Assembly: GCA_022925895.1 (NCBI GenBank)
Contig: JAKSYS010000197.1
Location: forward strand, 26,370 to 90,369
Reading direction: 5' to 3'
From: Fragilaria crotonensis
Lineage: Eukaryota; Bacillariophyta; Fragilariophyceae; Fragilariales; Fragilariaceae
DNA length: 64,000 nucleotides
Shown: positions 17,737 to 59,400 of the stretch, in pieces
Position numbering within the stretch: position 1 is the stretch's first letter
How the letters are laid out: every line of letters begins with the position of its first letter
The notes under the pieces: generated by a model
Databases searched by the model: none
What the model was told of the DNA's origin: nothing
Seen by the model: only the letters and a program-made list of their open reading frames with translations
Program-made: the position numbers and the translations under genes

Positions 17737-17960
17737 TCAAGGAATCCCAATCCTGTTGATGACGATGGGTGTGTCCACATCTCCATCATTTGTTGTGGCA
17801 TGATGTGGTTCAATTCTTGCTTGGAAATGTCCTCCCAGCCAGTGGCTCTGTTCTCTCTCGTGAAAGAAATTCAGCATGATGCCGCTTTGTACTCCGTGGC
17901 CGCATTCAGCATTGCCATCGCGGTTGCCACAAACCGCCATCTTTGTGGCGACTGTAGCGC
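17737..17960 (-). pseudogene. gene fragment cut by the copia element
   Basis: A minus-strand frame is open from the LTR border (17960) to a stop at 17737. Residues such as HGVQSGIMLNFFHERE and GDVDTPIVINRIGIP look protein-like, with acidic and aromatic residues in balanced proportion. If real, it is the 3' end of an unknown gene whose 5' part was removed when the retrotransposon arrived. No family was recognised. Confidence 0.3.
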
Positions 17961-18198
17961 TTGTTGGGCTATCTAAGAATTTCCAAAGAATTCTTCAAGA
18001 TGCGAGTCATTTGACGAAGTCATTCTACGACCAAACTACGACCAAACAAGATGTGAACGAATATGCTTACAATCTCAATTAACTCTTAGGAACGATTACT
18101 TGTGAAGAGTGTGTTATCGACAACCTATTTGACCCCTGACGTATTCTCAAGGAATACAAGAAGGCTATAGTTATAGTCCTCGGGGTGCAATTTCAACA
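17961..18198 (+). repeat. 5' LTR
   Basis: TG...CA boundaries with 5-bp inverted ends TGTTG/CAACA. Nearly identical to 23268-23504. If the PBS complementarity marks the transcript start, U3 is 17961-18068 and R-U5 is 18069-18198. Confidence 0.95.
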
Positions 18199-18213
18199 GT
18201 TAATTGAGATTGT
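18199..18213 (+). promoter_or_regulatory. primer binding site complementary to the element's own LTR
   Basis: GTTAATTGAGATTGT begins at the first base after the 5' LTR, where minus-strand priming occurs. It is the exact reverse complement of ACAATCTCAATTAAC at 18069-18083 inside the LTR (and 23375-23389 in the 3' LTR). It does not begin TGG, so it does not match the 3' CCA end of a tRNA. The arrangement is that of the self-primed Tf1 element, where the mRNA 5' end folds back onto the PBS. Confidence 0.7.
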
Positions 18214-18282
18214 CCGGTCTAGAAAGCGCCGTAAGAATACCGGACGAGTGAAAGTCTGAAGAACACCTGCGAGGTTGAGACC

Positions 18283-19184
18283 ATGAGTGGAAAAGGAAAG
18301 TTCTACAAGAAAGGTCAAGGCAAGGGCAAAAGCCAAGCCAAAGGAGGAAGCTCCGCTACACCAAGGAAAGCAAGAAGCAGTACATCACTGACTTCAACTA
18401 CTATCTTGGATCGGCAAAACAAGCGTCCGATTACGAGACAACTACGGAATTCGTGATAAATCACATCAAGAAGATATACGATTATGGCAATGATATTGGC
18501 ACTGCTCTTGAGAAGCTAGAAGCCATTGATACGGCAGCGTGGAGACCCAGAATGCAGGTTAGCGGAGAAGAGGATGAGACAGTCCGAACCATCGAGAATA
18601 AGCAATTCGAGATTGAGTTCAAGTCCGATTACGATACATATCGGAAGCGCATGCAAGTGTATGAAAACAACTTGACAAAAGCATATGCTCTGCTCTGGGA
18701 ACGTTGTACCAAGGCCATGAAGAATAAGATTGAGGCAAGATCAGACTACGAGTTGATCAGGAATGACCCAATCAAGTTGCTGAAAGCAATAAAGGAACAC
18801 GCACTGAATTATCAGGAGAGTCGATACTCCATGTCAATCGTGTTAGATGCCATGAGAACACTCATGGGCACAAAGCAAAAGGAAGGCGAAAGCCTACAGG
18901 ACTATACCAAGAGGTTTCGCGTGGCGAGAGACGTGCTCAAGTCACATGTCGGCGGTCCCATTGTCTTGACAAAGATAGTCGAAGCGATGGATGGTTATGA
19001 GGACGCGGACAGCGAGAAGCGCAGCAAGATGTGTGAGCAAGCGTTCAATCAATTCTTGGCATTTCTCTACCTCGACAATGCCGATAAGGCAAAGTATGGC
19101 TCCATTTTAACCGGTTTGAATACCCAACAGTCACTGGGAACGATCAGTATCCAAAGACAATCACGGAGTCTAACAACGTTCTAA
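18283..19184 (+). CDS. gag: copia Gag (frameshifted)
   Basis: Gag starts at ATG 18283 (MSGKGKFYKKGQGKGKSQAK, a basic start) and continues, after a 1-nt frame change near 18351-18356, through KKQYITDFNYYLGSAKQ to the main 243-codon frame. The latter is helical and charged, with the copia Gag pattern (RMQVYENNLTKAYALLWERC; YTKRFRVARDVLKSHVG). It forms the virus-like particle around element RNA in the cytoplasm. A second 1-nt frame change at the G run 19136-19138 separates it from the zinc knuckle. In the intact ancestor Gag and Pol were evidently one frame, since reading the next frame from there gives coding-like sequence into Pol. Confidence 0.85.
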
Positions 19185-19204
19185 GCAATCATAAGTTCGA
19201 CGCC

Positions 19205-22200
19205 ATGGCAAACAAGACTGCAGGCAAGAAGAACAATGCATCCGATGGGAGCAAGAACAAGGAAAAGAAAGATGACGAAACCAAAGAAGACGAAGAGGTT
19301 AATCTCTCGTTTGCCCAAATGGAGGGCAAGTGCTACTGCTGTGGAAAAGCGGGACACAAATCGCCATCATGCCGCGACAAAGGCAAGCCCAAGGAAGAGT
19401 GGGCAATCAATAAGGCTCAACAAAGTCATGCACAGACAAAGTCTGATGCGAGTGTTGCTCCACCAGGTTCAGTATCAGGAGGGAGTGTAACGCCATCAAG
19501 CTCGAGTTCGAGTACAACTGGATGGGCTGGTGCTCATATCGAAGTACAGTTTCAGCAATTCGATCCTTACGAGATGAGGAATTGGATTCTTTTGGACAAT
19601 CAATCGAGTGTAAGTGTTTTCTGCAACCGCAACTTGGTGCAGAATATTCGAAAGTCGGACGAAGGCGACATGTATTTGTCGACCAATGGAGGAGTACTCG
19701 TGACGACTGACAAGGCTGATCTTCCCGAATGGGGAGAAGTGTGGTTCAACGAAGGAGCCATTACCAACATTTTCAGCTACGCAGAAATGGCGGATCGATA
19801 TCGGATCACTTATGACTCGACTAAGGAAGACGCATTCGTCGTTCATATAAGCGATGACAAAAAAGTGCGCTTCAACAGGCTAGGAAACAACCTATATGTG
19901 TACAAGCCGCCTATCAACAATTACACAAACAAGGCACAGCTTTTAAATACTGTGGAAGAGAACAAGAGTTTCTACACGCAACGTCAGTTTGACAGAGCAA
20001 AACGAGCGCGAGATTTATATCATGCACTCGGAACACCATCAATCCACGATTTCAAGGCAATGTTGCGAATGAACAGTATCAACAACAACCCTGTCACTAC
20101 CGAAGATATCAACATTGCTGAAAAGATCTTCGGAATCGACATTGGGAGAATGAAGGGCAAGACGACTCGTCGCAAACCAGCACCAGTAGTCAATGACTAT
20201 GTCGAGATTCCGAAGGAGTTAATCGCGAGTCAGCGAGAGGTAACGCTCTGTATGGATGGCATGAAGGTGAATGGTGTTGTGTTTCTCACAGCTGTCTCTA
20301 AGAATTTGCAGTATCGGACTGCGCAATTCGTTAAACACCAGACAGCAGAGGTGTATCGCGAAGCATTGAAAGAGTTGTTCCGGATTTACAGCACGGGTGG
20401 TTTTCGTATCACCATCATTCGGTGCGACAATGAGTTTCGTCCATTGCTCGATCCTTTATCTCATGAATTTCATGTTGGTATGAACTTTGCCAATCCGCAG
20501 GAACACGTCCCGGAGGCAGAACGAAATAATCGCGTCATTAAAGAACGCGTACGAGCAACGTATCATCGTTTGCCTTATAGGCATTTAACTCGGATGATGG
20601 TGAAGATGCTGGTTACTGAATCGGCCAAGAAGTTGAATTTCTTTCCGGCCAAGCACGGAGTGTCTCCGTACTACAGTCCGCGCATGATTCTACATCAGCG
20701 CAACTTGGACTACGATCGCCATTGCAAATATGCGTTAGGCACGTATGTCCAGGCTCACGAAGAGCCAAAGTTTTCCAACACAAATGCCGCGCGCAGCCTT
20801 GACTGCATCTACTTGCGCTACAATGACAGTGTGCAAGGTGGACACGAACTCTTGCACTTGCAAACGAATTCGGTATTACGACGCCGAACTGTTACGCCCG
20901 TTCCCATTACGCCGGCGATCATCAAGCACGTCCATACCATTGCTGACACAGAAAACATGCCCGCAGGTCTCAAAATTGTCAATCGCACAGGTCAGATCTT
21001 TTATGATAGTGCCTGGATTGCAGGAGTGGACTATGACGAGGAAGCATTTGACGACGACGAAGATCAAGACGATTACGACGACGACAATAGCGATAGCGAC
21101 GACGACGTTCCATTGGGACAGTTCGAAGCGATTGATGAGAATGATATAACGATCAACAACGATGATGATGCATCCGATGAAGAAGACGCATTCGACAACG
21201 GCAACGAATCCGATGATGGAGATGAGGATGATCAGGGTCCCCACGGCAACAATGCAGGAGTGGCACCAAGTATTGAACAAGGCGATAACTATGAAACCGA
21301 TGAAGGCAACAACAATGACTTGGAAAGTGACGAAGAAAAGGAAGACACTGACGATGAGGAAGATCTCAATCCAGGCACCACTGCAGATATTGATGACAAT
21401 GATGGCAATCGACAGGGGATAAGAACAACAAGGTCAGGCAGAGTATTGAAGCCTCCTGACAAGTTGAACTTGGCTCAACACCATTTGAAGGTTGACGAGA
21501 ACCATGCAAATCGGGAGGAATATAGCATGGAGAGCGCGAGAGTGATAGCCATGATGATGTGCTACATGCAGGACATGCTTTGCAACCCTCGACGAAAGAA
21601 AGTGTTTCAATTCGTTCAGTCGTATGGTCTAATGAAAGGTCTCAAGAAGTTCGGTGAACGCGGACGAAAAGCAGCGTACAAGGAAATGAAGCAGCTGCAT
21701 GACCGTGTGGTTTTCAAACCAATACGTGTCGAGGAACTCACAGAACTAGAGCGCAAGCGCGCAATGGAAAGTCTCATTTTCCTGGTTGAGAAGAGAGACG
21801 GGACGGTAAAAGGTAGGACCTGTGCTAACGGTAGCACGCAACGTGAATACGTGGACCGTGATGAGGCAGCTAGTCCAACAGCTATGACGGAGTCGGTTAT
21901 TATCACTGGTACAATCGAGGCAAAGCAACAACGTGACATTATGACGGCGGATATTCCGAATGCGTTTGTCCAAACCAGGATTGACGACAAAGAAGTCGGT
22001 GAGAGAATCATTATGAAGATTCGTGGCCCTTTGGTTGACATGCTGTTGGAGTTGAGTCCAGAGACGTATGACGGGTTATCGTCTACGAAGGAAAGAGCAA
22101 GGTTATCTACGTGATGATGGTAATGGCACTATATGGTATGTTGCAATCGTCCTTGCTTTATTATAAGAAGTTCCGAAAGGACATTGAATCGATCGGGTTC

Positions 22201-23244
22201 GTCCTGAACCCATACGACCCTTGTGTTGCGAATCGAATGGTCAATGGAAAACAGCACACCATTACATGGCATGTCGACGATTTGAAGTCAAGCCATGTCG
22301 ACCCTAGAGTGAACGATGAGTTTTTGGAATGGCTCAAGAAGATGTACGCTTCCGACGGAATCGGAGAAGTGAAGACAACGCGAGGTCATCGGCATGACTA
22401 TCTGGCTATGGTGCTGGACTACTCGCGACCAGGAGTGCTTCAAGTCGATATGACAAATTATGTCAAGAGTATGGTCGAGGATTTCCCAGCTAAGTTGGAA
22501 GGAGACGGTACAGTCCCATGGACCGGTAAAATGTTTACCGTCGACGCGAAATCAAAGCGTCTGGATGACGAGAGGGCAAGGATCTTTCATACTTTTGTGA
22601 TGAAGGGAATGTTTTTGTGTAAACGTGGACGCCAGGATATTCAACCCGGTATTGCTTTCCTTGCTACTCGCACAACAGTGCCCACCGAGAAGGATTGGGC
22701 AAAACTAGTTAAATTAATGGTGTTCCTGAAGGAAACGAAAGAGGAAGTGGCGTCGATGAAGGCTGACGACACTCAGACCATTAAGTGGTATGTTGATGCT
22801 TCGTTCGCGGTACACGAAGACTACAAAAGTCATACCGGAGCAACTATGACGCTCGGAGAAGGTGTACTGTGCTCGATATCTACCAAGCAGAAAGTTATGT
22901 CGAGGAGCTCTACTGAAGCTGAGCTCATTGGTGTCGACGACGTTATTTCAAAAGTTCTATGGTCGAAATTGTTTATTGAAGCGCAAGGCTTTGACGTGAA
23001 GATGACGATTATCTATCGAGACAATACAAGCTCGATGAAGTTGGAGGCAAATGGCAAAGCAAGTTCGGGCAAACGCACCCGACATTTGAGTATTAAGTAT
23101 TTCTACATTACTGACTTGATTCAACGAAAGGAAGTTATGATCGAATACTGTCCAACGGATGCGATGATTGCGGATTACATGACCAAGCCGTTGACTGGTA
23201 CGAAATTCTTCAATTTCCGCACTCACATCATGAGAGCATCGTGA
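19205..23244 (+). CDS. pol: copia Pol: zinc knuckle, protease, integrase, RT, RNase H (one frameshift)
   Basis: From the ATG at 19205: a CCHC knuckle (C43-x2-C46-x4-H51-x4-C56); protease WILLDNQSSVSVF (D130), with DNQSS the form typical of diatom copia elements; integrase core with Asp near 350 (CMDGMKVNG), Asp near 407 (IIRCDNEF) and Glu near 440 (HVPEAERNNRVIKE). A long Asp/Glu-rich linker follows (residues about 612-730), then RT from FLVEKRDGTVKGRTCANGS. The frame shifts by 1 nt at the G run 22073-22075. RT resumes at 22111 with ALYGMLQS and catalytic WHVDDLK, then RNase H (WYVDASFAVH, STEAELIGV, HLSIKYFYI). It copies and integrates the element. The shift inside RT would prevent activity if real. 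Confidence 0.93.
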
Positions 23245-23267
23245 TTCATCCGTGTCCAGCAGGAGTG

Positions 23268-23504
23268 TGTTGGGCTATCTACGAATTTCCAAAGAATTCT
23301 TCAAGATGCGAGTCATTTGACGAAGTCATTCTACGACCAAACTACGACCAAACAAGATGTGAACGAATATGCTTACAATCTCAATTAACTCTTAGGAACG
23401 ATTACTTGTGAAGAGTGTGTTATCGACAACCTATTTGACCCCTGACGTATTCTCAAGGAATACAAGAAGGCTATAGTTATAGACCTCGGGGTGCAATTTC
23501 AACA
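23268..23504 (+). repeat. 3' LTR
   Basis: Starts TGTTGGGC, ends TTTCAACA, and is nearly identical to 17961-18198. The preceding bases (AGCAGGAGTG) are a weak polypurine tract. Confidence 0.95.
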
Positions 23505-23913
23505 TCAGGTCGCAGTAGGCTTCTTGATGAAGCTCTCCTTGACATGATGAATGAGGAAAAAAATCGAGGCCGAAGAAGAAGTAGCGATGGATCCAATCCG
23601 CATATCTCTAGTGCTTTTGCACGGAGGTATATCAAGAGGTTTGGAACGATGGGTGCATCCGGAACACAACATTAAGCGACGGGATGAACGTCGGGTGCTA
23701 ATCATGAAGGTACTTCAGGGGCAAGCTCTCAAAATTAAGAATTCTGGTACCAGTGTATGGCATGCAGAGCTCCTTAGGATGATTTCGGTGTCAAGCAGTT
23801 CAACCTCCAGGAAATTCGCTCGCTCTATGGGTGTAGCGGATGAGAAAGCCGTCCTGCAGGAGCGTCGTGGTGAGAAGGTCTGCTGGCCGATTCGACGAAA
23901 GTTGAAGATCTAA
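23505..23913 (+). pseudogene. 5'-truncated copy of the 34864-35466 gene
   Basis: Immediately after the 3' LTR the sequence aligns with 35053 onward of the intact copy: SGRSRLLDEALLDMMNEE here, SGRSTLLDAALLDIINEE there. A seven-A run at 23557-23563 shifts the frame by one. From 23551 the frame MRKKIEAEEEVAMDPIRISL continues to the stop at 23913, with the family core LVLLHGGISRGLERWVHPEH and the C-terminus KVCWPIRRKLKI conserved. Homology continues past the stop to about 24180, so it was a segmental copy, not a retrocopy of the coding region. Its first ~60 codons are missing: the left flank of the retrotransposon does not contain them. Confidence 0.8.
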
Positions 23914-24511: not shown

Positions 24512-25663
24512 TTACAAATCCTGTTGATGATACTGAGGGCACAGTTTTGATATCAGGACCTCCTTATAAACAATGTTGTGCAGAAGATGACCATCAGTAA
24601 ATATGAAAAGATCATGTGGGTTACGAACTCTTGAGAGAGCAACGTAAAGCTGGCCATGTGCAAATACACCTTGTGGCAAGAAAATGCCAACTCTTCGCAA
24701 TGTTTGACCTTGACTCTTGTTGATCGTCATTGCATATGCTGGTTGAACTGGAAACTGACGTCGTTTGAAGACAAATGGCAGCTCATCTTGAGGTGATAGG
24801 AGAGCAATCCGTGGTATGTCCACAATTTCTGCAGTGGTAGGAATCAAACACTGGAGGACAGACCGTGAGATACGGCGAACAATGAGACGGGTGCCATTGC
24901 TGAGTGTGCTTGATAGGTTTCGGAGCAGCATGACCAACATGCCTTTTTTCAGAGTGAGGCAATGTGGTGGAAGGCCAGATAGCTCCAAAGAGTTCAGGAA
25001 TTCAGGAGGATAGAGGGTATGTGCAGGATCATTAGGTTCCTCAGATATGATGTTGTCAATACTGAGAAACACATGTTCATCATGAGGTAGCCTTGAGGTT
25101 ACCATATCATTGATTCTTTGAACATCTTTGTTTTTAGGACATAGAATAGCACGTTCAGACCAATAGGCTGGTTCATTGGAAGAAAAATCATCAAACACAT
25201 GCTCAACCAGTTCGTTTGTATCCTGAGGCTGGAATATATAAGATGGTAGATTTATTGGGGAAGGCTCCATATCCTCGCCGATCCTCAACAGGAAAGATGC
25301 AAAATGGGAAAGTACTTCTTGGAACTCTGGGTTAGCATTTGTGTTCTGTAAGTCCATTCGCAATCGCATATTTTCAGAGAGTTGCATTACATTCACAGAT
25401 GATGTTTGCCAGACTTTGGATTGTAGGACAGTTGAATGCACAGTGGTAGCTCTTCCAGCATGGCGTAGTATGGGAAGCACTTGACGAAAGTCACCACCCA
25501 TGACGACAACCAAGCCACCAAATGGAGCATCATTACGTTCAAGTAAATCACAAAGAGACTGTGAAAGAACATCAAGACCAACACCCTTAAGCATTGTGAT
25601 CTCATCAATGATCAAAATCTTTGCAACCTTCATAACTTCTGCCTTCTCTTTGATAGGTTGCAC
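24512..25663 (-). pseudogene. Helitron helicase, C-terminal half
   Basis: PIF1-like SF1B helicase motifs: Walker B ILIIDEITM, GGDFRQVLPI, QLSENMRLR, and near the end the UvrD-C-like FPVQPAYAMTINKSQGQT and LYVALSRVRNPHDLFIF. It would unwind DNA 5'-3' during rolling-circle transposition. It continues the frame ending at 25630 after a 1-nt shift near 25640. Residues are well conserved, so decay is recent or the shifts are sequencing errors. Confidence 0.88.
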
Positions 25664-27120
25664 ATGGATGTTTCATATAATTGAATTGGAAGCCCGGATA
25701 TATAGTGCAGAGTACGGCCCAAAGGGGCAAAGTTTGAGGCAGCAATGCCTGATATGGCCGTTGCAAGGGCAACCTTCCCTTCACTGCGCACCTTGGCAAG
25801 GATCATCCTGAACAACTCCGTCTTACCTGAGCCTGCAGGTCCATCAACAAAATAAACATTTTTCTGATTTTCAGTACCAGCATTGTTGTTCACAGAAGCA
25901 AGTACAGCATCAAAAATAGCACGCTGTTCAAGATTCAGGAGAGGGAGGCGATCCAGCTGCTGTTGAATATCAGTGTTGGATGATGACAGCTGCAATTCTA
26001 ACAAATGGTTGACTGAATTGTTGTCCATGGCACTCCCATGCTCCTCAACCAGAAGTGTGCGGAGGGATGGTATCCATTCGAATACAGAACGGCTGTGCAT
26101 TATCCCCAGAAGGGCATCAAGTTTACGCACAAGGAGGTCCTGCAGGTGTTGTTCACTAAGGCTGGGTTGACGGTGTGCATAGTCTTCTGACAGGGCAGCC
26201 CAGTGAGAGTCATAGAGTGACCTTGGGTCAGAGACATCACAGTTGAAGAGGATGATTGCAAAAAGTCTTCTGAGCCTTGCTGGGGAGAGTGTCTGTGTGG
26301 CTTCCTGCATGGCTCGATGCCACTCAGTATCATCATCTAGAAGACCCAATGTACGACAGGCATCTTGAAATGTTGGACAAAGTACATCATCAACGGTTCG
26401 TAGAGCTTCAAAGCTTGTTGCACCTTTCACTACAGTCAACATCCTTCGCAGGAAGTATCTCTCACCAGAAGAAGGGGAAGCACTGTAGAGGCGAGACACA
26501 GTGGGGAATGTCTGCCGGTGATTGGAGCGTCGTACCCAGCACTTCTCGACACCAGCACTTTTCCATGTGTAGTGTTGTGGGATGTCATGATAAAGGAACT
26601 GGCGAGCATACTGATCATGCCGATTGAGGTCCAACCAGGCAGTCAATTGTGTACAGGGTGGTCCTCTTGCAAGCACTTGAGCAACATTTTCATTTTCCTC
26701 AAAAACCACTGATTGCTGATTGGGAAGATGGAACATTAGGCGCATCACATTGGGCTTCTCTGAATGTAGACGAAGGCTGAAGAGGCGCCAGCATGCCTCT
26801 GATGCAGAGACATAACGTCCATCAAGATAGAGCTTGATCTCATCAACATCTTCCCCCATCTGGACTGCAGCACGGTCGTGTCCCTTGTATACATACTTGT
26901 AGAGGTACTTGACGGCCTGCACTGAATTGCACACCTCAACATTGATATGACAATCATACTTCTTGGTAAGATGGCAATTATATGGCACAACCCAGCGGTT
27001 GTCCAACTCAGCTCCTCGAACAGTTACAGTCCTTCCATCATCACGTCGATGATATTGAGGGAATCCATCATCATTGAGTGTTGTCTCATCTTGAAAGGGC
27101 CGGGATACTTGTCCTTGCAT
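25630..27120 (-). pseudogene. Helitron Rep C-terminus and helicase N-terminal half
   Basis: Begins with DNRWVVPYNCHLTKKYDCH and VKYLYKYVYKGHDRA, the Rep region holding the two tyrosines that cut and join DNA. A long linker follows (FLYHDIPQHYTWK, RYFLRRMLTVVKGATSFE, TFQDACRTLGLLDDD), and then Walker A VDGPAGSGKTELF of the helicase and GIAASNFAPLGRTLHY. All are standard Helitron segments. Upstream, the piece CMLHGPCGT and CKDKYPGPF in other frames (about 27205-27100) shows two more 1-nt shifts. Confidence 0.88.
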
Positions 27121-28632: not shown

Positions 28633-29423
28633 GATGAAAAGTAGCCCCTTTCAGACCTTGATTCATTTGGAAAATGCAGTGCAGAGCAGCCCTGACATTC
28701 AACTGTGCATGGGCCAAGGACATGACGTGCTGGAGCAGGAGCAGATGAATAGGCTGCGCCATTGGTGCGTTGGCAACTTTGGCGTGTTTGTCTCATGTGC
28801 TCTTGGTGCTGAGTGGTGATGGCAGCCATCTGTGTGGCAGCAACAGGGTCACCTTCTTGAGATCTCTGGAGGCGCTCCAGACGTGTTTGTCTCATCTGCT
28901 CTTGGTTCCTAGTGGTGATGGCAGCCATCTGTGTGGCAGCTACAGGGTCACCTTCTTGAGATCTCTGGAGGCGCTCCAGACGTGTTTGTCTCATGTGCTC
29001 TTGGTGCTGAGTGGTGATGGCAGCCATCTGTGTGGCAGCAACAGGGTCACCTTCTTGAGATCTCTGGAGGCGCTCCAGACGTGTTTGTCTCATCTGCTCT
29101 TGGTGCTGAGTGGTGATGGCAGCCATCTGTGTGGCAGCAACAGGGTCACCTTCTTGAGATCTCTGGAGGCGCTCCAGACGTGTTTGTCTCATGTTCTCTT
29201 GGTGCTGAGTGGTGATGGCAGCCATCTGTGTGACAGCAACAGGGTCACCTTCTTGAGATCTCTGGAGGCGCTCCAGACGTGTTTGTCTCTTCTGCTCACG
29301 GTTCCTGGTGGTGATGGTGGCCATCTGTGTGACAGCAACAGGGTCACCTTCTTGAGATCTCTGGAGGTGCTCCAGACGTGTTTGTCTCTTCTGCTCACGG
29401 TTCCTGGTGGTGATGGCGGCCAT
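28575..29423 (-). pseudogene. Helitron N-terminus: 33-residue repeats and Cys-rich motif
   Basis: 282 codons. Six full and one partial copies of a 33-residue unit (MAAITTQHQEHMRQTRLERL, then QRSQEGDPVAATQ) are followed by CTVECQGCSALHFPNE and GYFSSCCAKGKVSL, the zinc-binding start of Helitron proteins. Arg/Gln-rich repeats are usual at this place in Helitron proteins but are rarely this uniform. The frame is open further upstream to about 29530 without an ATG (RAKLRNLSQEEGGDPVAATQ), so the true start is unknown. It shifts by 1 nt near 28610 into the next segment. Confidence 0.85.
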
Positions 29424-29447
29424 CTGTGTGGCAGCTACAGGGTCACC
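28770..29447. repeat. 99-bp tandem repeat array (six to seven units)
   Basis: A 99-bp unit containing GATCTCTGGAGGCGCTCCAG recurs with few changes. It encodes the 33-residue repeats on the minus strand. Because 99 is divisible by three, the plus strand is also open through the array, but that frame (28770-29561) is a by-product. Confidence 0.92.
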
Positions 29448-29598
29448 ACCTTCTTCTTGGGACAGGTTGCGAAGTTTGGCACGCTTTTCCTTGCTGCAAT
29501 GGCAGCTGGCTTTGTTGATAGTGAATGTTTACTTGGGTGTGACATAATGGTTATATGCTGATTGGAAAGAATTGGAAGCAAGGAATTATGTGAGCGGT

Positions 29599-43345: not shown

Positions 43346-43924
43346 ATGGGGGGTCGACAGTGGTGGATGCTGGCATTGCCTCTCTGTCATGCCTTCCAAA
43401 ATGGCATTTGCTTTGACAGAAGCCTCCGTTTAACGAAAAGTCGCACTCGATGTGTAGTCCGAATCAACGAAAACATCAAACGGAAGACCATGTCCAACGT
43501 AGTCTCGAATTTGATCGCGTGCAACCTTGTGAAACGTGACATCGTAGCCGATTCATCCAATGAATGGCCTACAGATGCCCCATCGTGGGCACTAAGTGGT
43601 TGGGAGACGCCGCCCACATCAGATGGCAGCGATCCTCCAGACCAGGGCTCCTGCAAAACGGGAACCAACCATCAGAACAAATTCTCCGTCACGAACGATT
43701 CGCCGACATGGGAATTGGTCCTTGCAAAGACGTTGCCAGATGACGGTACTTCTTCTGTCTCTCCAGAATCAGCAATCTTGGCTCCTCGCGGAGGGTGCGA
43801 TAATCTGTGCGACGATACACAACGGTATTCCGATACTTGTGAGTTCACCGTGTTGGGCAATGCCAAGTGGTTGATAATTCGGACTGAGGATCAGCGCTGG
43901 ATCTTCGAACCATCGCTGTTGTGA
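43346..43924 (+). CDS. conserved hypothetical protein in the segmental duplication
   Basis: 192 residues from ATG 43346. The N-terminal ~65 residues are unique to this copy. From about residue 76 (DAPSWALSGWETPP) the sequence is shared with 53889-54241, and the C-terminal part (SPTWELVLAKTLPDDGTSS, APRGGCDNLCDDTQRYSD, CEFTVLGNAKWLIIRTEDQR) keeps its frame in both copies. It has paired cysteines and a compact beta-rich look but no known domain. The N-terminal stretch ALPLCHAF could be a weak leader. The duplication border falls inside this gene, so the other copy is headless. It is convergent with the DUF547 gene (stops 87 bp apart). Confidence 0.5.
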   Translation: MGGRQWWMLALPLCHAFQNGICFDRSLRLTKSRTRCVVRINENIKRKTMSNVVSNLIACNLVKRDIVADSSNEWPTDAPSWALSGWETPPTSDGSDPPDQGSCKTGTNHQNKFSVTNDSPTWELVLAKTLPDDGTSSVSPESAILAPRGGCDNLCDDTQRYSDTCEFTVLGNAKWLIIRTEDQRWIFEPSLL

Positions 43925-44010
43925 CAATCCCTAAAACAGATGAAGACGTTCCAACACCAAGTAGTCAGTGCACCGGCAATGTGAATGCACGCACCTCCAA
44001 CCCAAAGGTG

Positions 44011-46110
44011 TTACTTTTCAGCCGATTCCACAGATTCGCTACCATCATTTTCAATCACCATCTCTTCCAAATAGTCACTCTCATTTTGCTCATCTTGGTC
44101 CACACGTGTCAACAGCTGATGGTACTGTTCGGCACACGGTAGAAACTTGATGGCGTATGGACTGTCCTCCTTCATCAGAGACACGACAGTCCGCTGCCGA
44201 TCGGCGCTCAAGAATCGCGTGCAAAAGGCAAGACATGACAAGGCATCTCCAGGCCCGAAATCGTTCCGGTACACATCGCACACTTTTGGAATCAGAATTA
44301 CGCGCCTTGCGTCATCAATGACAAGGTGACGTTGGATGAACTTTGTACTTGCGGCCTGTAGTTGAGACTCAAGACGATCAGACCTGAGGACCGGGATGGC
44401 TTGGGAGAAAGAAGAATCGCCGGTGTTCAGCATAAAGATGATTCTCGGATCTGTGTAGGTTAATGCGTAGATACTGTAGGCAGAAGACTTGCGAGGAATG
44501 TCGATGTAAGGATGCTTCGGCGAGACAGGCTTGGACATGTTTCCACGAAGAACACAGTGGTAAAGTTCGGCCAATGAAAAAACGTCGCCTCCGATTTCAT
44601 AACAAGAGGTACGAAAAAAATGCCCAACCGACTTCTTGTAGAGTGGGCCATTAATCGTCAGCAAAAGAGCGTGTTGGAGGAGACAGTGATAAATATTAGC
44701 AAAGATGCACAATGCTGATGGTTGTGAAAGATCCAAGCGATCGAGTTGTATTGATCGTAGTTGACTCGTCATGTCAAGAAACGCAGAGAAGGAAGCAGGG
44801 TCTGATTCGATTGTATCGAATGTTGTCGAAAGGGCGAATGCAAGCAACTTGTTGACGAAGGACTCGATTCGTTGCGTTTCAAAATCCTCCTCGTCATCTG
44901 AGGACGCCAGCGTCTCGATATCAAAGGTCATTCGCCGCCCGTTCATCACTGACCGGTGCATTGACTTGGAACCAGAAGGTATCTTGGACCATTTTTGGTT
45001 TCCAGTTGATGCCGCTGCTTCAACAGAGTCCTGAAAGCCCTGCCAGAAGCGAGCTTTCCACATATCGTTGTCGGCATCTATGCTCTCTTGGCGGAGGCCT
45101 TTCTGAGCCATGATTCTCAAACAAAATTCATCTCTCGACTCCTCGCCAGGAAATGCCAGATAATAGCACTGCCACGCAGTTTCAATTACAACAACCGGAT
45201 ATCCTGGCAAGGGAGACAACTCATTCAGATCCAAGGGTCGAACCAAACTAATGTCAAAGTAAGAGAGCTGCAGCGATGGAAGTTTCGACCCCGGCGTAAA
45301 CAATACGACTTTCTTTTCGTACACACCAAGCCACTCTTCTCGCCAGTGACTCTCCCAAAGACACCTAGCTACAAGCGAGGCAAACAATCGCTTCTGGTCG
45401 TCTGGGGGTACAACTCCGACCTGGTAAGCGCCGCCCTGTAGAAACGACATGTCTAGCTCGGTGGTCTGGAGGAATTGAGCCTGTGCGATGGCTTCAAAGT
45501 ATTTTCCCATCTGCGAAGAAGGCGCGGCACTTGAAATCCGATTGAGGGCGCGGGACGTTGTTCGTAACGACTGCTCGGACGGCGACAGTAGCCCGGCGAG
45601 TGAGGTTGGGTGAGTTCTCCAAATGGCCGAATTCCTCTTCTCGAAACGCTTGACTGTGCGATTCACCGCCAAAAATTCGTTTTCCTTTCTGCGCTTGCTT
45701 GTTTTTACTCCAGGTGTGACTTTCGGCGCCTTCGGGTCTCGGGACGGCGGTTTCTTTGAATGTTGAATGGCAGTCGCTGTCCGCGAAACTGGAGCGATGA
45801 TCGCCTTTCCAGCAGTAACTCCAACCTTTTTCCCTTGCTTGACAACCTGCTTTCCAGTTTTGGCCGTGCTTGTGGCCACTGATCTGGCGAATTGGTCAAA
45901 ATTTACTGTCTTCGCGATCTGATCCATGATTTTCCGCCCCTTGGTCCTGGGCGTTCTTTCCGCTTGATCAAAGTCAATCTCATCTTCAGTCAGCTGCTCG
46001 CCATCGTCATCAGTCATTGACGGCATGTTTTCAAGAGATTCTTGTCGTTGGGAAGTAACTGGATCATCTGCCTCCGACGGAACTCTGCGAGGGTGATTGA
46101 CCCGTTGCAT
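44011..46110 (-). CDS. DUF547-domain protein with PH-like region
   Basis: 699 residues from ATG 46110 to the stop at 44011, uninterrupted. Residues 1-240 are disordered and basic (TKGRKIMDQIAK; AKTGKQVVKQGKKV). About 245-335 looks like a PH domain: WREEWLGVYEKKVVLFTPG, LQLSYFDISLVRP, VVVIETAWQCYYLAFPGEES. From about 440 the DUF547 signature follows: CIFANIYHCLLQHALLL, VGHFFRTSCYEIGG, FSLAELYHCVLRGNM, DPRIIFMLNTGDSS. DUF547 proteins occur in plants and bacteria with no settled function. The PH-like part suggests membrane lipid binding. The start lies only ~40 bp beyond one possible end of the DUF1769-like gene on the same strand, so the two may be one spliced transcript. The other copy (54366-56458) is broken. 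Confidence 0.72.
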   Translation of the reverse strand: MQRVNHPRRVPSEADDPVTSQRQESLENMPSMTDDDGEQLTEDEIDFDQAERTPRTKGRKIMDQIAKTVNFDQFARSVATSTAKTGKQVVKQGKKVGVTAGKAIIAPVSRTATAIQHSKKPPSRDPKAPKVTPGVKTSKRRKENEFLAVNRTVKRFEKRNSAIWRTHPTSLAGLLSPSEQSLRTTSRALNRISSAAPSSQMGKYFEAIAQAQFLQTTELDMSFLQGGAYQVGVVPPDDQKRLFASLVARCLWESHWREEWLGVYEKKVVLFTPGSKLPSLQLSYFDISLVRPLDLNELSPLPGYPVVVIETAWQCYYLAFPGEESRDEFCLRIMAQKGLRQESIDADNDMWKARFWQGFQDSVEAAASTGNQKWSKIPSGSKSMHRSVMNGRRMTFDIETLASSDDEEDFETQRIESFVNKLLAFALSTTFDTIESDPASFSAFLDMTSQLRSIQLDRLDLSQPSALCIFANIYHCLLQHALLLTINGPLYKKSVGHFFRTSCYEIGGDVFSLAELYHCVLRGNMSKPVSPKHPYIDIPRKSSAYSIYALTYTDPRIIFMLNTGDSSFSQAIPVLRSDRLESQLQAASTKFIQRHLVIDDARRVILIPKVCDVYRNDFGPGDALSCLAFCTRFLSADRQRTVVSLMKEDSPYAIKFLPCAEQYHQLLTRVDQDEQNESDYLEEMVIENDGSESVESAEK

Positions 46111-49100
46111 CAAGGCTCATGAGGATCTCTCTAGGTTCAAGTCGTTCGATTACAGGGGGGTCGAAAATTTTGTTGTTGCGCGACTCTACCCCGCTGATTC
46201 TTCGATCCCTAACAGGTTTGGGTGATGTCCTCCACTTGGAGTTACCAAGTCCAGATCGAATGATATCAGCCAGTGTCCTTCCACTTCGAAGTCGACAGAA
46301 CGAAGATGATTTCTTTCTTCCTTCCGCGTCATCGTCTTCGCTGTCTACAATAACTCTCACAACGTACACCAGCTTGCGGCGGCGTTCTGTTCGATCAAGC
46401 ATCTCGATCCATACAGGGACATCGAGGTTACAATTCAAGGTTGTCAAACGTAAGCCATTCTGGGCTTCAACCATGTCGACATTTTCGAAAGAAAAAGAAC
46501 CCTCTCTTTCAAACTTGGGGGTCGCCAACCTCGCTACTGCCGCTGGAAGTTGAGCGCAAAAGAGTATAGGCTTCATCCACTTGCCGCCATTCCCTTCAGT
46601 GCCGTCTCCCAAAACGACTTCGTCGTCCTCTTCGTCCCTCCTGTTTGCAGAGTCGTACAAACCAAGCATGCGGCCGCCATACATCGCAGACTCTTGAGTC
46701 CTTACGCCTACGTGGAAACCATTCCATCGTTTGTGTTGCAAGCCGAACGTCCCTCCAATTGTGATGTAGGAGCTTTGGTTCTCTTGAATAAAGTTGTCAG
46801 TATCGGGGATGTGAACGCTGAAAAATCCGTTGTTCTTCGGTTCAGCATTAACCCATTTCAGCCACCACCCCCTATGAATCGACAAGTACTTGTACTCAGT
46901 TGAGTCACCGGCACCCTGCACGACGAGCTTCACCTTCACTGTATCTCCTGATCGTATTAGCAACGATCTATCTGTCACACTCGTTTTCTTCGATGTCGCT
47001 TTCTCCAAAACAACAACTGCTGACGCGCTTTCTTGAACAACAGTGAAACCTCCACCGTTACATACGAAACCGTCGATACCCTGATCCGGAGACGAAACTT
47101 CCAAGATAACTGGATCGCCACTGCGAAGATAGAGTCCTCCTCCGAGTTCTGCAATGGTTTGCTCCTCCAAATAGGAGTCTTCATCGACTGATTCATTGTC
47201 CTCTAACAACGGATTTTGATCTCTGAAAATGGATGTCGCAGTTAGTTGACTATTGGCTTCCATCCATGCTTTGGCAGCGCCAACTTCCATTTCTCGACTG
47301 TTCGAAATCTCAAGGTCAGTACAGACTTGCATGACACTTCGCAAATGCCGTTCTTGTCCAAAGGGCAACACGTAAAGGGTAAGGTGAATCGGCTGCGGAC
47401 CCACCACGCTGGCTAACCCAAATGGCTTAATTCCTGGAAAGTTCAACGTTTTCCATTGGAGAAAATCAAAGTAACTGCTGTACATGGACATGGTATAGGT
47501 ATCCTCCGTATTCCAATCTACAAAGCCCGTCTTGAGACGGCGCTTCAAGTGTTCTGGATCTTCCAGTAAATCTTGTCCCAGCGTCGGCGGGGTTTCACCG
47601 GGTTTGGTAACAACAATGCGAGAAACCAGTTTCGACTCCAAATGCCATGTGGGGTTTCTCTTCCGTGCCTGACGACGATGACGACCCCGTGATCGAATAA
47701 TCCACTGTGCCAGTACTCATTTTTGGACAAAGGCCATGGCGACCCCCACAAAGGCACGTTGGAAGACTCCCATTTTGACAGGTTCTTCCAGTTCGCAAGC
47801 AAAGAAGACTCTGCCCTTGGGCTTTATTGGAATAAAAACGTAATGTAGTGGTCGAGAAATGAACGATAACGGCAGGGTGAGCAGATGCACAAATACAAGG
47901 GAGAGTTAAATCTTGGCATTGTTGGTGTTGAGAAAGTTGCAAACAAGCGTACCTTTTCCTTCAATTTGAATTGCCATTGAAATTCAAACCTGCGTTGTTT
48001 TGTGCAAAATAAGAGGCATAGAGTTGTTGCTGTGAATGACCCGGTGCTGGTCCCCTTGCAGCAGCGTCTTCTAATGGATGATCGACATCTGGTGTGCGTA
48101 TCATTGATAGCATTTGGCCCTTGAATAAGAAATTGTCCAAAACAAAAGTTTCTGTCGAGTTGGGAAAGAATCGCTGGCCATTCGAAGTGTTCATGATGAA
48201 GAGGTGCTCCAACGATGGATGAGGTTGGGGAAGAGAGGGATCTGGTACCAGCGCAGGCGTCTGGTTCTGACTACCACGATCGCCATCCATACCATCATCG
48301 TCATGGTCGTATTCATCAACGTCTACAAGGTGTGCACGCCGTTGGATGAGGGAAGGAGGAGAAGGGGGGATCTCCGTGGCAGATGATATTGACATTGACT
48401 CGACCAACGCACGGTTATTGTTGTTGTTGTTGCGGAAGTGATTCCAGTATGACAGAAGCAAAATACTCCGACACGTGAGCCATGCCACGACAAGGTATTC
48501 TGCCAAGCGACGGACCACCGGAAAGGCACCTGGAGAGTGGACTCCACAAGAATATGCCAATACAAGTAATCCGATATGAATCAAGACACGCTCTATTGAG
48601 GCAATCACATCTTTCTGGTTCGCATCCAAGGAGAGACCGAACGTATTTTTGCCAACGTTTTGTTGGCCTTCGTTCGAGTCATCATTGTCCTTGATTGGCA
48701 TGCTTGTCATTGTCATTGGTTGATTCAAGCGATGATTGGTCGGATGAGAAGCTGAAGAGATACTGTAATCATTTTGGCTTTGTGGCAGCGATGTGGGATC
48801 ATCGCCGTCCGAGTAACCACCTTCTCGTCGAAGACGATTGTGATGATTGTTGTTATTACCGGTGTCGATGTTGTTGCGTGAATCTCTAATTCCTTGTTCC
48901 TTTCGCACTCGTAAACCACGACTAACAGCTCGCTTCCAATAGGGTCGACCAAGTAGAGATTTCCTTCCTTGTTGTTCCAGTTCCTGGTCTACTAGCGGTA
49001 CTTCTAGGTCTCCTTCTATGGGTCGTTCCGGCTCCTGTTCTACCGGTAACACAAGTTCCGGCTCCTTATCCTGCTCCAGCTCTGGTGGAGACGCACGTAG

Positions 49101-53256: not shown

Positions 53257-53888
53257 CACCCTTACATAAGGAAGGATGAGAAATTTGAGAATCTGCTTAA
53301 ATCTCCTTTTTCCTTCGTTGTACTGTACTGTAATATGGGAACATCAAAACACCGTTACTACATTGTTGTGAAGTGCGTTACATAAAAACATTCTTGAAAA
53401 ACATCTTATTTTACTATGACAAATAAGTGCTTTGTCGTTATGGCGATATAAGGAAATATAAGGAGATTCGAGAACTGCTTAAATCTCCTTTTTTCCCTTA
53501 TGAATGAGAAGGAAGTACGTCAAATATATTTTTGAGATGATTTTGTGAAACAACTTCTCCCAGAGAAGGTGACAAGAATCGGCATGACTACTACTATGCA
53601 TAGCACCCTGAGCGTGCCGGTGCAAATCGGTTAGCGTGGCACAGATGTATGATGGTAGTGCTTAAAAATATATTTGAGAAATAACGGTTAAAAAGTAGGC
53701 CACAACGAGATGAAGTGGAAATTCCGGATGTCCCAGTTAAGCTGTCCACTGGTACGAGTACGAAGGCCTTCACACGCAGTGCATTCATAGCAAAACCATT
53801 CACCGCGTGCAAGCATCCTCAACGACCACAAAGAATATCTGGTGTGTGTCAAGTGTCAGCAGACGACAGTCAACGAATCGACCACACA
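53257..53888. other. spacer before duplication copy B
   Basis: Two similar words, GAGAATTTGAGAATCTGCTTAA-like near 53280 and 53470, both followed by ATCTCCTTTTT. Nothing else was recognised. Confidence 0.4.
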
Positions 53889-54241
53889 CGGATGCCCCAT
53901 CGTGGGCATTAAGTGGTTGGGAGACACCACCAACATCAGCTGGCAGCGATCCTCCAGACCTTGGCTCCTGCCAAACGGGAACGAACCATCAAAACAAATT
54001 CTCCGTCACGAACGATTCGCCGACATGGGAATTGGTCCTTGCAAAGACGTTGCCAGATGACGGTACTTCTTCTGTATGTCCAGCATCAGTAATCTTGGCT
54101 CCTCGCGGAGGGTGCGATAATCTGTGCGACGATACAGAACGGTATTCCGATACGTGTGAGTTCACCGTATCGGGCGATGCTACGTGGTTGCTTATTCAGA
54201 CTGAGGATCAGCGCTGGATCTTCCAACCATCCCTGTTGTGA
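53889..54241 (+). pseudogene. headless copy of the 43346-43924 gene
   Basis: It shares the C-terminal ~117 residues with copy A in one open frame, including SPTWELVLAKTLPDDGTSS and RGGCDNLCDD, with substitutions such as LIQTEDQRWIFQPSLL at the end. Upstream of 53889 the sequence is unrelated to copy A, so the gene's start is missing. Confidence 0.6.
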
Positions 54242-54365
54242 CAGAGACTTCCAGATCCGTTTCTATGCGATGTGAAGAACAATCTCTCAAACTGATGATG
54301 ACGCTCCAACACCAAGTAGTCAGTGCACCGGCAATGTGAATGCATGCACCTCCAACCCAAACGTG

Positions 54366-56458
54366 TTACATTTCAGCCGATTCCACAGATTCGCTACTAT
54401 CATTTTCAATCACCATCTCTTCCAAATCGTCACTCTCATTTTGCTCATCGTGGTCTAAATGTGTCAGCAGGTGATGGTACTGTTCGGCACACGGTAGAAA
54501 CTTGATGGCGTATGGACTGTCCTCCTTCATCAGAGACACGACAGTCCGCTGCCGATCGGCGCTCAAGAATCGTGTGCAAAAGGCAAGACATGACAAGGCA
54601 TCTCCAGGCCCGAAATCGTTCCGGTACACATCGCACTTTTGGAATCAGAATTACGCGCCTTGCGTCATCAATGACAAGGTGACGTTGGATGAACTTTGTA
54701 CTTGCGGCCTGTAGTTGAGACTCAAGACGATCAGACCTGAGGACCGGGATGGCTTGGGAGCAAGAAGAATCGCCGGTGTTCAGCATAAAGATGATTCTCG
54801 GATCTGTGTAGGTTAATGCGTAGATACTGTAGGCAGAAGACTTGCGAGGAATGTCGATGTAAGGATGCTTCGGCGAGACAGGCTTGGACATGTTTCCACG
54901 AAGAACACAGTGGTAAAGTTCGGCCAATGAAAAAACGTCGCCTCCGATTTCATAACAAGAAGTACGGAAAAAATGCCCAACCGACTTCTTGTAGAGTGGG
55001 CCATTAATCGTCAGCAAAAGAGCGTGTTGGAGGAGACAGTGATAAATATTAGCAAAGATGCACAATGCTGATGGTTGTGAAAGATCCAAGCGATCGAGTT
55101 GAATTGATCGTAGTTGACTCGTCATGTCAAGAAACGCAGAGAAGGAAGCAGGGTCTGATTCGATTGTATCGAATGTTGTCGAAAGGGCGAATGCAAGCAA
55201 CTTGTTGACGAAAGACTCGATTCGTTGTGTTTCAAAATCCTCCTCGTCATCTGAGGACGACAGCGTCTCGATATCAAAGGTCATTCGCCGCCCGTTCATC
55301 ACTGACCGGTGCATTGACTTGGAACCAGAAGGTATCTTAGACCATTTTTGGTTTCCAGTTGATGCCGCTGCTTCAACAGAGTCTTGAAAGCCCTGCCAGA
55401 AGCGAGCTTTCCACAAATCGTTGTCGGCATCTAGGCTCTCTTGGCGGAGGCCTTTCTGAGCCATGATTCTCAAACAAAATTCATCTCTCGACTCCTCGCC
55501 AGGAAATGCCAGATACTAGCACTGCCACGCAGTTTCAATTACAACAACCGGATATCCTGGCAAGGGAGACAACTCATTCAGATCCAAGGGTCGAACCAAA
55601 CTAATGTCAAAGTAAGAGAGCTGCAGCGATGGAAGTTTCGACCCCGGCGTAAACAATACGACTTTCTTTCGTACACACCAAGCCACTCTTCTCGCCAGTG
55701 ACTCTCCCAAAGACACCTAGCTACAAGCGAGGCAAACAATCGCTTCTGGTCGTCTGGGGTTACTACCGACCTGGTAAGCGCCGCCCTGTAGAAACGACAT
55801 GTCTAGCTCGGTGGTCTGGAGGAATTGAGCCTGTGCGATTGCTTCAAAGTATTTTCCCATCTGCGAAGAAGGCGCGGCACTTGAAATCCGATTGAGGGCG
55901 CGGGACGTTGTTCGTAACGACTGCTCGGATGGCGACAGTAGCCCGGCGAGTGAGGTTGGGTGCGTTCTCCAAATGGCCGAATTCCTCTTCTCGAAACGCT
56001 TGACTGTGCGATTCACCGCCAAAAATTCGTTTTCCTTTCTGCGCTTGCTTGTTTTTACTCAGGTGTGACTTTCGGCGCCTTCGGGTCTCGGGACGGCGGT
56101 TTCTTTGAATGTTGAATGGCGGTCGCTGTCCGCGAAACTGGAGCGATGATCGCCTTTCCAGCAGTAACTCAACCTTTTTCCCTTGCTTGACAACCTGCTT
56201 TCCAGTTTTGGCCGTGCTTGTGGCCACTGATCTGGCGAATTGGTCAAAATTCACTGTCTTAGCGATCTGATCCATGATTTTCCGCCCCTTGGTCCTGGGC
56301 GTTCTTTCCGCTTGATCAAAGTCCAATTCATCTTCAGTGAGCTGTTCGCCATCGTCATCAGTCATTGACGGCATGTTTTCAAGAGAATCTTGTCGTTGGG
56401 AAGTGATTGGATCATCTGCCTCCGACGGAACTCTGCGAGGGTGATTGACCCGTTGCAT
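54366..56458 (-). pseudogene. DUF547-domain protein, copy B
   Basis: Aligns with copy A (44011-46110) throughout. Damage seen: loss of one base at about 56061 and 56170, an altered GGGGTTACTACC stretch near 55758, T4 to T3 near 55667, a nonsense change TAT to TAG at about 55517 (within the QCYYLAF motif of copy A), and a 2-bp loss near 54637. The DUF547 core (54860-55130) remains nearly unchanged. It cannot give a full-length protein. Confidence 0.85.
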
Positions 56459-56497
56459 CAAGGCTCATGAGGATCTCTCTAGGTTGAAGTCGTTCGA

Positions 56498-59400
56498 TTA
56501 CAGGGGGTCGAAAATTTTGTTGTTGCGCGACTCTACGGTGATTCTTCGATCCCTAACAGGTTTGGGTGATGTCCTCCTCTTGGAGTTACCAAGCCCAGAT
56601 CGAATGATACCAGCGAGAGTCCTTCCACTTCGAAGTCGACAGAACGAAGATGATTTCTTTCGCACTTCCTCGTCATCGTCTTCGCTGTCTACAATAACTC
56701 TTACAACGTACACCAGCTTGCGGCGGCGTTCTGTTCGATCAAGCATCTCGATCCATACAGGGACATCGAGGTTACAATTCAAGGTTGTCAAACGTAAGCC
56801 ATTCTGGGCTTCAACCATGTCGACATTTTCGAAAGAAAAGAACCCTCTTTTCAAACTTGGGGGTCGCCAACCTCGCTACTGCCGCTGGAAGTTGAGCGCA
56901 AAAGAGTATAGGCTTCATCCACTTGCCGCCATTCCCTTCAGTGCCGTCTCCCAAAACGACTTCGTCGTCCTCTTCGTCCCTCCTGTTTGCAGAGTCGTAC
57001 AAACCAAGCATGCGGCCGCCATACATCGCAGACTCTTGAGTCCTTACGCCTACGTGGAAACCATTCCATCGTTTGTGTTGCAAGCCGAACGTCCCTCCAA
57101 TTGTGATGTAGGAGCTTTGGTTCTCTTGAATAAAGTTGTCAGTATCGGGGATGTGAACGCTGAAAAATCCGTTGTTCTTCGGCTCAGCATTAACCCATTT
57201 CAGCCACCACCCCCTATGAATTGACAAGTACTTGTACTCAGTTGAGTCACCGGCACCCGGCACGACGAGCTTCACCTTCACTGTATCTCCTGATCGTATC
57301 AGCAACGATCTATCTTTCACATTCGTTTTCTTCGATGTCGCTTTCTCCAAACAACAACTGCTGACGCGCTTTCTTGAACAACAGTGAAACCTCCACCGTT
57401 ACATACGAAACCGTCGATACCCTGATCCGGAGACGAAACTTCCAAGACAACAGGATCGCCACTGCGAAGATAGAGTCCTCCTCCGAGTTCTGCAATGGTT
57501 TGCTCCTCCAAATAGGAGTCTTCATCGACTGATTCATTGTCCTCTAACAACGGATTTTGATCTCTGAAAATGGATGTCGCAGTTAGTTGACTGTTGGCTT
57601 CCATCCATGCTTTGGCGGCAGCGCCAATTTCTATTTCTCGACTGTTCGAAATCTCAAGGTCAGTACAGACTTGCATGAGACTTCGCAAATGCCGTTCTTG
57701 TCCAAAGGGCAACACGTAAATGGTCAGGTGAATCGGCTGCGGACCCACCACGCTGGCTAACCCAAATGGCTTAATTCCTGGAAAGTTCATCGTTTTCCAT
57801 TGGAGAAAATCAAAGTAACTGCTGTACATGGACATGGTATAGGTATCCTCCGTATTCCAATCTACAAAGCCTGTCTTGACACGGCGCTTCAAGTGTTCTG
57901 GATCTTCCACTAAATCTTGTCCCAATGTTGGTAGCGTTTCACCGGGTTTGGTAACAACAATGAGAGGAAACTAGTTTCGACTCCAAATGCCATGTGGGTT
58001 TCTCTTCCGAGCCCGACGACCCCGTGATCGAATAATCAAATGCACCAGGACTCATTTTTGACAAAGGCCATGGCGACCCGCACAAGGCACGTTGGAAGAC
58101 TCCCATTTTGACAGGTTCTTCCAATTCGAGAGCAAAAAGACTCTGCCGTTGGGCTTTAGTTGGAATAGTGAGCAGATGCACAAATATAAGGGAAATTAAA
58201 TCCTGGCATTGTCGGTGTTGAGAAAATTGCAAATAATCGTACCTTTGCTTCACTTTGAATTGAAATTGAAATTCAAACCTGCGTTGTTTTTGTGCAAAAT
58301 ACGCGGCATAGAGTTGTCGTTGTGTACGATCCTGTGCTGTTCCCTTGCAGCAGCGTCGTCGGCTGGATTATCGACATCTGGGGTCCTGATCATTAACAAC
58401 ATTTATCCCTTGAATGAGGAATTGTCCAAAACAAATGTTTCCGTCGAGTTGGGAAAGAGTCGCTGGCCATTCGATGTGTTCATGATGAAGAGGTGCTCCA
58501 ACGATGGATGAGGTTGGGGAAGAGAGGGATCTGGCATCATCGCAGGCGTCTGAATCTGACTTCCACGATCGCCATCCAAACCGTCATCGTCATGGTCAGT
58601 TTCGACATGGTCGTATTCATCAACGTCAACGAGGTCTGAACGACTTTGGATGACAGGAGGAGGAGGAGAAGGGGATCTGCGTGACAGATGATATTGAATT
58701 GACTCGACCAACGCACGGTTGTTGTTGTTACTGTTGCTGTTGTTGTTGCGGAAGTGATTCCAGTATGACAGAAGCAAAATACTCCGACACGTGAGCCATG
58801 CCACGACAAGGTATTCTGCCAAGCGACGGACCACCGGAAAGGCACCTGGAGAGTGGACTCCACAAGAATATGCCAATACAAGTAATCCGATATGAATCAA
58901 GACACGCTCTATTGAGACAATCACATCTTTCTGGTTCGCATCCAAGGAGAGACCGAACGTATTTTCGCCAACGTTTTGTTGGCCCTCCTTAGAGTCATCA
59001 TTGTCCTTGATTGGTATTGTCGTCATTGTCATAGGTTGATTCAAGCGATGATTGGTCGGATGAGAAGCTGAAGAGATACTGTAATCATTCTGGTTTTGTG
59101 GTAGCGATGTGGGATCATCGCCGTCCGAGTAACCACCTTCTCGTCGAAGACGATTGTGATGATTGTTGTTATTGCCGGTGTCGATGTTGTTGCGTGAATC
59201 TCTAATTCCTTGCTCCTTTCGCACTCGTAAACCACGACCAACGGCTCGTTTCCAATAAGGTCGACCAAGTAGAGATTTCCTTCCTTGTTGTTCCAGTTCC
59301 TGGTCTACTAGCGGTACTTCTAGGTCTCCTTCCATGGGTCGTTCCAGCTCCTGTTCTACCGTTAACACAACTTCCTGCTCCTTATCCTGCTCCAGCTCTG

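Follow-up and report, generated by a model that had tools for sequence, protein, structure and literature searches.

Covariation of an LTR segment with the primer binding site points to self-priming in a group of diatom copia retrotransposons

Here we describe a group of copia families in the diatom Fragilaria crotonensis that very probably prime reverse transcription with the 5′ end of their own mRNA, in the manner of Tf1, as judged from the sequences of their long terminal repeats (LTRs) and primer binding sites (PBSs). The primer of most LTR retroelements is a tRNA taken from the host. The pattern was noticed in one copy, which lies in a window of 64,000 nucleotides, the whole stretch of DNA that was analysed. 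That self-priming belongs to a group of families, beyond the window copy alone, is well supported: the lineage appears self-priming because the primer stretch and the PBS change together from family to family. All of the evidence comes from one genome, in which many copies are closely related. Its diatom character agrees with a CP43 protein encoded on contig C881, whose best matches are 7vd5, 6j3y and 8iwh, structures of diatom photosystems.

The window element, an LTR retrotransposon of the copia type, occupies 17962-23504 and has LTRs of 237 bp each, the 238 bp of the original prediction being one too many. Its features are the following.

17962..18198, plus strand: 5′ LTR of 237 bp, two substitutions apart from its partner at 23268-23504; its termini, TGTTG...CAACA, have the TG...CA ends that are a Ty1/copia trait
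18069..18084, plus strand: proposed self-primer ACAATCTCAATTAACT, predicted mRNA +1 to +16 and start of R; complements 18198-18213 exactly and covaries with the PBS of relatives
18141..18157, plus strand: U5 hairpin GTATTCT-CAA-GGAATAC, with two covarying pairs in five relatives (alignment columns 73-89)
18198..18213, plus strand: PBS, the LTR-terminal A plus 15 nt, in a position that matches that in the exact junctions (38 of 41)
18214..18243, plus strand: CCGG...CCGG stem directly 3′ of the PBS, from the consensus of five relatives (columns 148-151 with 177-180), invariant
18283..23244, plus strand: gag-pol coding region, in several frames in the window copy, with RT-RNase H at 22111-23244
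23258..23267, plus strand: polypurine-tract-like AGCAGGAGTG, immediately 5′ of the 3′ LTR
23268..23504, plus strand: 3′ LTR, with the primer segment repeated at 23375-23389

A polypurine-like stretch also precedes the 3′ LTR in relatives, and we take AGCAGGAGTG to act as the polypurine tract. The C120 copy has an uninterrupted frame of 1658 aa whereas that of the window copy is split across several frames, and because its coding region is interrupted the window copy need not be active. Perfect 5-bp target-site duplications were seen by eye in C361, C218, C55 and C14; the flanks of the window copy, GCGCT (17957-17961) and TCAGG (23505-23509), form none. As a separate observation, in L037, L044 and L046, members of groups 2 and 3, the pol frame stays open for the first 205-227 nt of the 3′ LTR.

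The 15 bases that directly follow the 5′ LTR, GTTAATTGAGATTGT at 18199-18213 of the plus strand, are perfectly complementary to 18069-18083 inside this LTR and to 23375-23389 inside the 3′ LTR. Both matches had been claimed in the original prediction and are confirmed here with one addition, since T18084 also pairs with A18198, the final base of the LTR. The helix thus comprises 16 pairs, 18069-18084 with 18198-18213. No further site for GTTAATTGAGATTGT was found within the window when up to two mismatches were allowed, and the window 15-mer has only three exact sites in the 62.1-Mb genome (881 contigs), all of them inside the window element. When the LTR was shuffled 5000 times with its dinucleotides preserved, runs anchored at the primer 3′ end extended to 11 nt at most and to 15 nt in no case.

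Relatives were retrieved through their RT (119 matches) and through LTR DNA, and the 41 junctions between 5′ LTR and PBS that were read are a subset of these, the window's included. The complement is exact over its full length in 38 of the 41 (15/15 in 37 of them, 14/14 in the remaining one). These 38 junctions carry 14 distinct sequences, pairing from the LTR-terminal A, among them CAATCTCAATTAACT (window), TACTTTACTAAAACT (C361), CTTTAATTTAATTTT (C733), TATTTAATTTAAAAT (C501), CTTTCTCGCAACAAT (C59) and TTCTCTCGAAACAAT (C108). The other three junctions match at 13/15, with one mismatch and one G-U each in C239 and C560, the latter with a stop in its RT, and two G-U pairs in C445. C685 differs from C501 in that one primer base is missing and the matching PBS base is missing too, which leaves a helix of 14 nt. 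Some further sequences stand outside the 41: C124, whose 5′ LTR is unrecognisable and whose PBS matches its own 3′ LTR at 13/15 by eye; C125 and C251, whose retrieved sequence has no 5′ junction; and C216/L087, which shows no complement and is no 5′ junction, because its downstream sequence is identical to the flank of the C220 3′ LTR. An LTR segment that serves as primer predicts near-perfect pairing of drifting sequences, matched deletion included, whereas with a tRNA as primer the PBS should track the sequence of the tRNA.

That PBS and LTR segment should change together had been set as a test beforehand, and the 14 exact variants do covary. We quantified this in an alignment (A2) of 34 of the 41 rows, 33 of them distinct, from which C685 and near-identical copies were left out. 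Standard pairs fill 99.6% of the 495 cells of the 33 distinct rows (2 of 495 are unpaired), and double changes occur at 13 of the 15 helix pairs. The covariation score is 0.816, compared with 0.183 (sd 0.019) in shuffles, none of which (0/500) reaches it, and sliding the partner by a single column lowers pairing to about 51%. Weaker measures discriminate less: 13 of 500 shuffles reach the count of double-change pairs and 130 of 500 reach that of further pair types. When PBSs were swapped among the 16 variants of 15 nt, the best of 20000 permutations scored 188 against an observed 234. Because shuffles ignore relatedness, changes were also counted on an RT tree of 21 of the 41 elements, those with both an RT piece and a junction, all of which are exact matches. 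The tree requires at least 35 changes in the primer site, and the PBS and the pair state match this with 35 apiece; without C685 the counts are 33, 33 and 33, so that the single C685 deletion accounts for some of the changes. The counts for primer and PBS are equal because all 21 elements are exact, and what the tree adds is the spread of the changes over many branches.

These numbers bear on the idea that the match arose by chance, or as an inherited inverted duplication without function. The A/T-rich composition of the PBSs and the close relationship of many copies would favour such an origin, but the failure of all 5000 LTR shuffles to reach 15 nt and the double changes at 13 of 15 pairs speak against it, as does the lack of a match at all four junctions of a distantly related copia lineage that shares the genome. 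Contradicted by the covariation, this idea is extremely improbable.

Priming by a tRNA or half-tRNA, as in most copia elements, has the weight of custom behind it: in most plant copia groups the PBS complements the 3′ end of tRNA-Met, and some use half-tRNAs (PMC6317226). The window PBS, however, does not start with TGG. Over 17 PBS sequences, the longest match to a tRNA is 5 to 9 nt among 63 tRNA predictions, a number that includes repeats and derives from 30 of 63 tRNA places; the 9 nt are reached by the window PBS with a tRNA-Val on C881, a contig with plastid genes. The search of tRNAs for the 15-mer, also set beforehand and made genome-wide with the window variant, found it in no tRNA gene of the assembly. 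A tRNA primer was therefore rejected as scarcely credible. This absence, together with the covariation of PBS and LTR, lends support to the self-priming interpretation that had been offered for the window copy.

If the LTR segment complementary to the PBS is the primer, we would predict it to be the 5′ end of the mRNA, and the surrounding sequence is consistent with this. An A lies immediately 5′ of the complementary stretch in 41 of 41 junctions, as part of CA in 39. The oomycete initiator is YCAYTYY, and oomycetes, like diatoms, are stramenopiles (PMC3599244). At 24 of 41 junctions, which cover 6 of the 14 distinct contexts, this motif coincides with the predicted +1, compared with 3 of 6505 other positions in these stretches. 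The form YYANWYY is found at +1 in 32 of 41 (9 of 14 contexts) versus 87 of 6505 elsewhere, and TCAKTY in 16 of 41 versus 2 of 6546. The same source cites mammals for transcription starting usually at adenine and states that the initiator, alone among its motifs, seemed to occur in a diatom (PMC3599244). Nine of the 41 junctions, including that of the window (TTACAAT), match neither YCAYTYY nor YYANWYY. The window sequence fits none of the three consensuses tried, and its start at 18069 is predicted from the motif of its relatives. Taken together, the preceding A and the initiator match suggest that the mRNA would start at the A, with pairing from +2 to +16. The +1 base is unpaired in 34 of 41 junctions and pairs too in the other seven, namely the window element, C239 and five C361-type copies.

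A further observation concerns the predicted start in group 3 (L097-L111). With one mismatch permitted, 15 of 18 junctions of this group have an inverted repeat across the start with 8 or more matched pairs; the other 23 junctions have at most 6 matched pairs. In these group-3 elements the primer copy of the 3′ LTR could be locked in a hairpin.

From these features we infer the following course of transcript start, cleavage, primer use and rewriting by copying. The first transcribed base would be an A within the LTR, here 18069, which in most relatives is the initiator A. The first 16 nt of the mRNA would then fold back onto the PBS, about 130 nt downstream, whose first base is the final base of the LTR. 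The RNase H of the element would cut the mRNA after about nucleotide 16 (or 15), releasing a short RNA primer whose 3′ end would be extended into U5; the U at +16, which faces the LTR-terminal A, is invariant in A2 and is compatible with a cut after either nucleotide. In LTR elements generally, minus-strand synthesis starts at the U5 edge, and when the plus strand is made the primer serves as template for the PBS of the progeny. By such copying, an argument carried over from retroviral replication, the PBS of a new insertion would be rewritten from the mRNA 5′ end. Because each round would rewrite the PBS in this manner, drifting primer and PBS would stay matched.

The predicted structure of the leader is compatible with this model. 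The primer helix, with at least 13 pairs, is present in the minimum free energy (MFE) fold of 41 of 41 leaders, which is weak evidence by itself because a sequence with an exact inverted repeat should fold in this way in any case. The nested fold of the window leader, begun at 18068, one base ahead of the predicted start, is better than that of any of 200 shuffles (z -3.3). Among five close relatives, the primer helix encloses the U5 hairpin with its two covarying pairs, and the invariant CCGG/CCGG stem follows. Double changes affect 12 of the 52 pairs of the consensus leader: 8 in the primer helix and 4 elsewhere, of which 2 are in the U5 hairpin. The CCGG/CCGG stem, being invariant, has no covariation to support it, and a single-sequence fold of the window pairs 18214..18243 otherwise than in the consensus stem. 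A search of 17900-18500 against Rfam gave no match.

Two other readings of the helix are to be weighed against this structure. The LTR segment might prime in trans, with the 5′ fragment of another element RNA, or the 3′ copy of R, annealing to the PBS. Covariation of sequence is blind to the difference between cis and trans, the segment is also present in the 3′ LTR, and related elements package their RNAs as dimers. The leader, however, is confidently predicted to fold on itself, with high probability for the pairs, and where the start-site inverted repeat is present (15 of 18 group-3 junctions, the window's group being without it) it would hide the 3′ copy; we consider trans priming unlikely. 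Alternatively, the helix might serve packaging, translation or dimerisation while an unrecognised cellular RNA primes. Some retroviral leaders do have long-range helices near the PBS, and the remainder of the present leader is predicted to be structured too. Against this stand the position of the helix, which in all 41 junctions begins at the LTR-terminal base, the expected start of the minus strand, and the absence of the window 15-mer from every tRNA gene; moreover, no single cellular RNA could be complementary to all 14 PBS sequences. We hold such a structural role to be very unlikely, and priming in cis by the mRNA 5′ end remains the preferred reading.

The assignment to copia rests on the RT. 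Three relatives, with RTs 40-46% identical to that of the window, have matches to Pfam RVT_2 at 1e-17 to 2e-20; the window ORF alone scores 19.7 bits against RVT_2, below the cut-off of 31.6. The RT of the relatives is thus of the RVT_2 (copia) type and not that of the Ty3/gypsy chromoviruses to which the Tf1/sushi lineage belongs. Invariant columns of the alignment contain acidic residues that we assign to the RNase H motif. A profile search of the PDB with the RT alignment gave no match.

Tf1 is the founder of the self-priming group of elements, in which RNase H cleavage makes the primer (PMC7175516). As in Tf1/sushi elements, the mRNA 5′ end, here a predicted one, complements the PBS (PMC7175516), and the leader is predicted to be structured. 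Unlike those Ty3/gypsy chromoviruses, the window group belongs to copia and has a complement of 15-16 nt rather than 11. It differs from Tf1 also in that pairing runs from the predicted +2, with +1 unpaired in most junctions, and in that the helix takes in the final base of the LTR. Furthermore, self-priming of Tf1 has been tested in the laboratory, whereas that of the window group is predicted from sequence.

The original prediction had presented the window element, should its transcripts start near 18069, as an independent case of self-priming in copia. Self-priming is supported here, but the case is not the first, because it was predicted earlier, likewise from sequence, for the plant Ty1/copia TAR lineage (Houba, Osr-1; PMC6317226). 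TAR is a plant lineage, and its prediction as given in that source comes without an analysis of covariation or start sites. Among other copia elements, those of the CoDi type are, like the window group, copia elements of diatoms; CoDi-like clades belong to copia branch 1 (PMC5445492). The terms 'primer binding', 'tRNA' and 'priming' are absent from the CoDi paper (PMC2806351), whose main text was searched for them. The fungal copia element GalEa has no tRNA PBS and carries a palindrome after the LTR, the Conserved Hairpin Site; unlike the window element, it is described without a Tf1-like LTR complement (PMC5445492). We found no report of self-priming in diatom copia elements in the open-access literature, a coverage outside which most subscription papers fall. 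IMG/VR was scanned with the window RT, which returned nothing, and with the RT profile, which returned four pattern matches, none of them confirmed, so that the finding rests on one genome.

On balance we lean towards a wider picture, a stramenopile copia radiation without tRNA primers. An mRNA end set by the initiator would be the primer and the PBS would be rewritten each round, both drifting yet matched; in one subgroup, with the 3′ copy hidden by the inverted repeat, priming would be left to the true 5′ end alone, and the origin of the system would be separate from that of Tf1/sushi. Self-priming in the present group, multi-family and backed by covariation, would be a further case, in copia outside plants, beside Tf1/sushi and the predicted TAR lineage. 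It would explain why such elements would be missed by PBS searches based on tRNAs, and it is relevant to the suggestion of self-priming in an early LTR precursor (PMC3601003). The model yields a prediction of the transcript start at base resolution, and the natural sets of matched primer and PBS offer material for testing primer choice by the element.

The distant copia lineage, whose RT is 25-27% identical to that of the window, is represented by four junctions (L121-L124 on C221, C45, C867 and C733:79845-80047) that are counted apart from the 41. Three of them are RT matches, and C733:79845 is assigned by its LTR only, over the 150-odd LTR bases compared. An LTR complement of at least 9 nt occurs in 0 of these 4 junctions, and their post-LTR sequence has no match longer than 6 nt to the tRNA predictions. 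Directly after the LTR they carry a palindrome, CGTTTATAAACG at three junctions and CGTTTTAAAACG at one, followed by ATCAGTT. This palindrome is reminiscent of the hairpin site of the fungal GalEa element (PMC5445492).

Several other repeats and reading frames were observed elsewhere in the window. About 5.2 kb at 43528-48717 are repeated 10.3 kb further on, at 53845-59033, with 87-100% identity, and the paired ORFs of this repeat resemble host genes. A 99-bp tandem repeat occupies 28684-29574, with seven overlapping copies of a three-unit reference. Finally, two large ORFs lie on the minus strand at 24512-27120, which we presume to encode a helicase of the Pif1/Helitron type.
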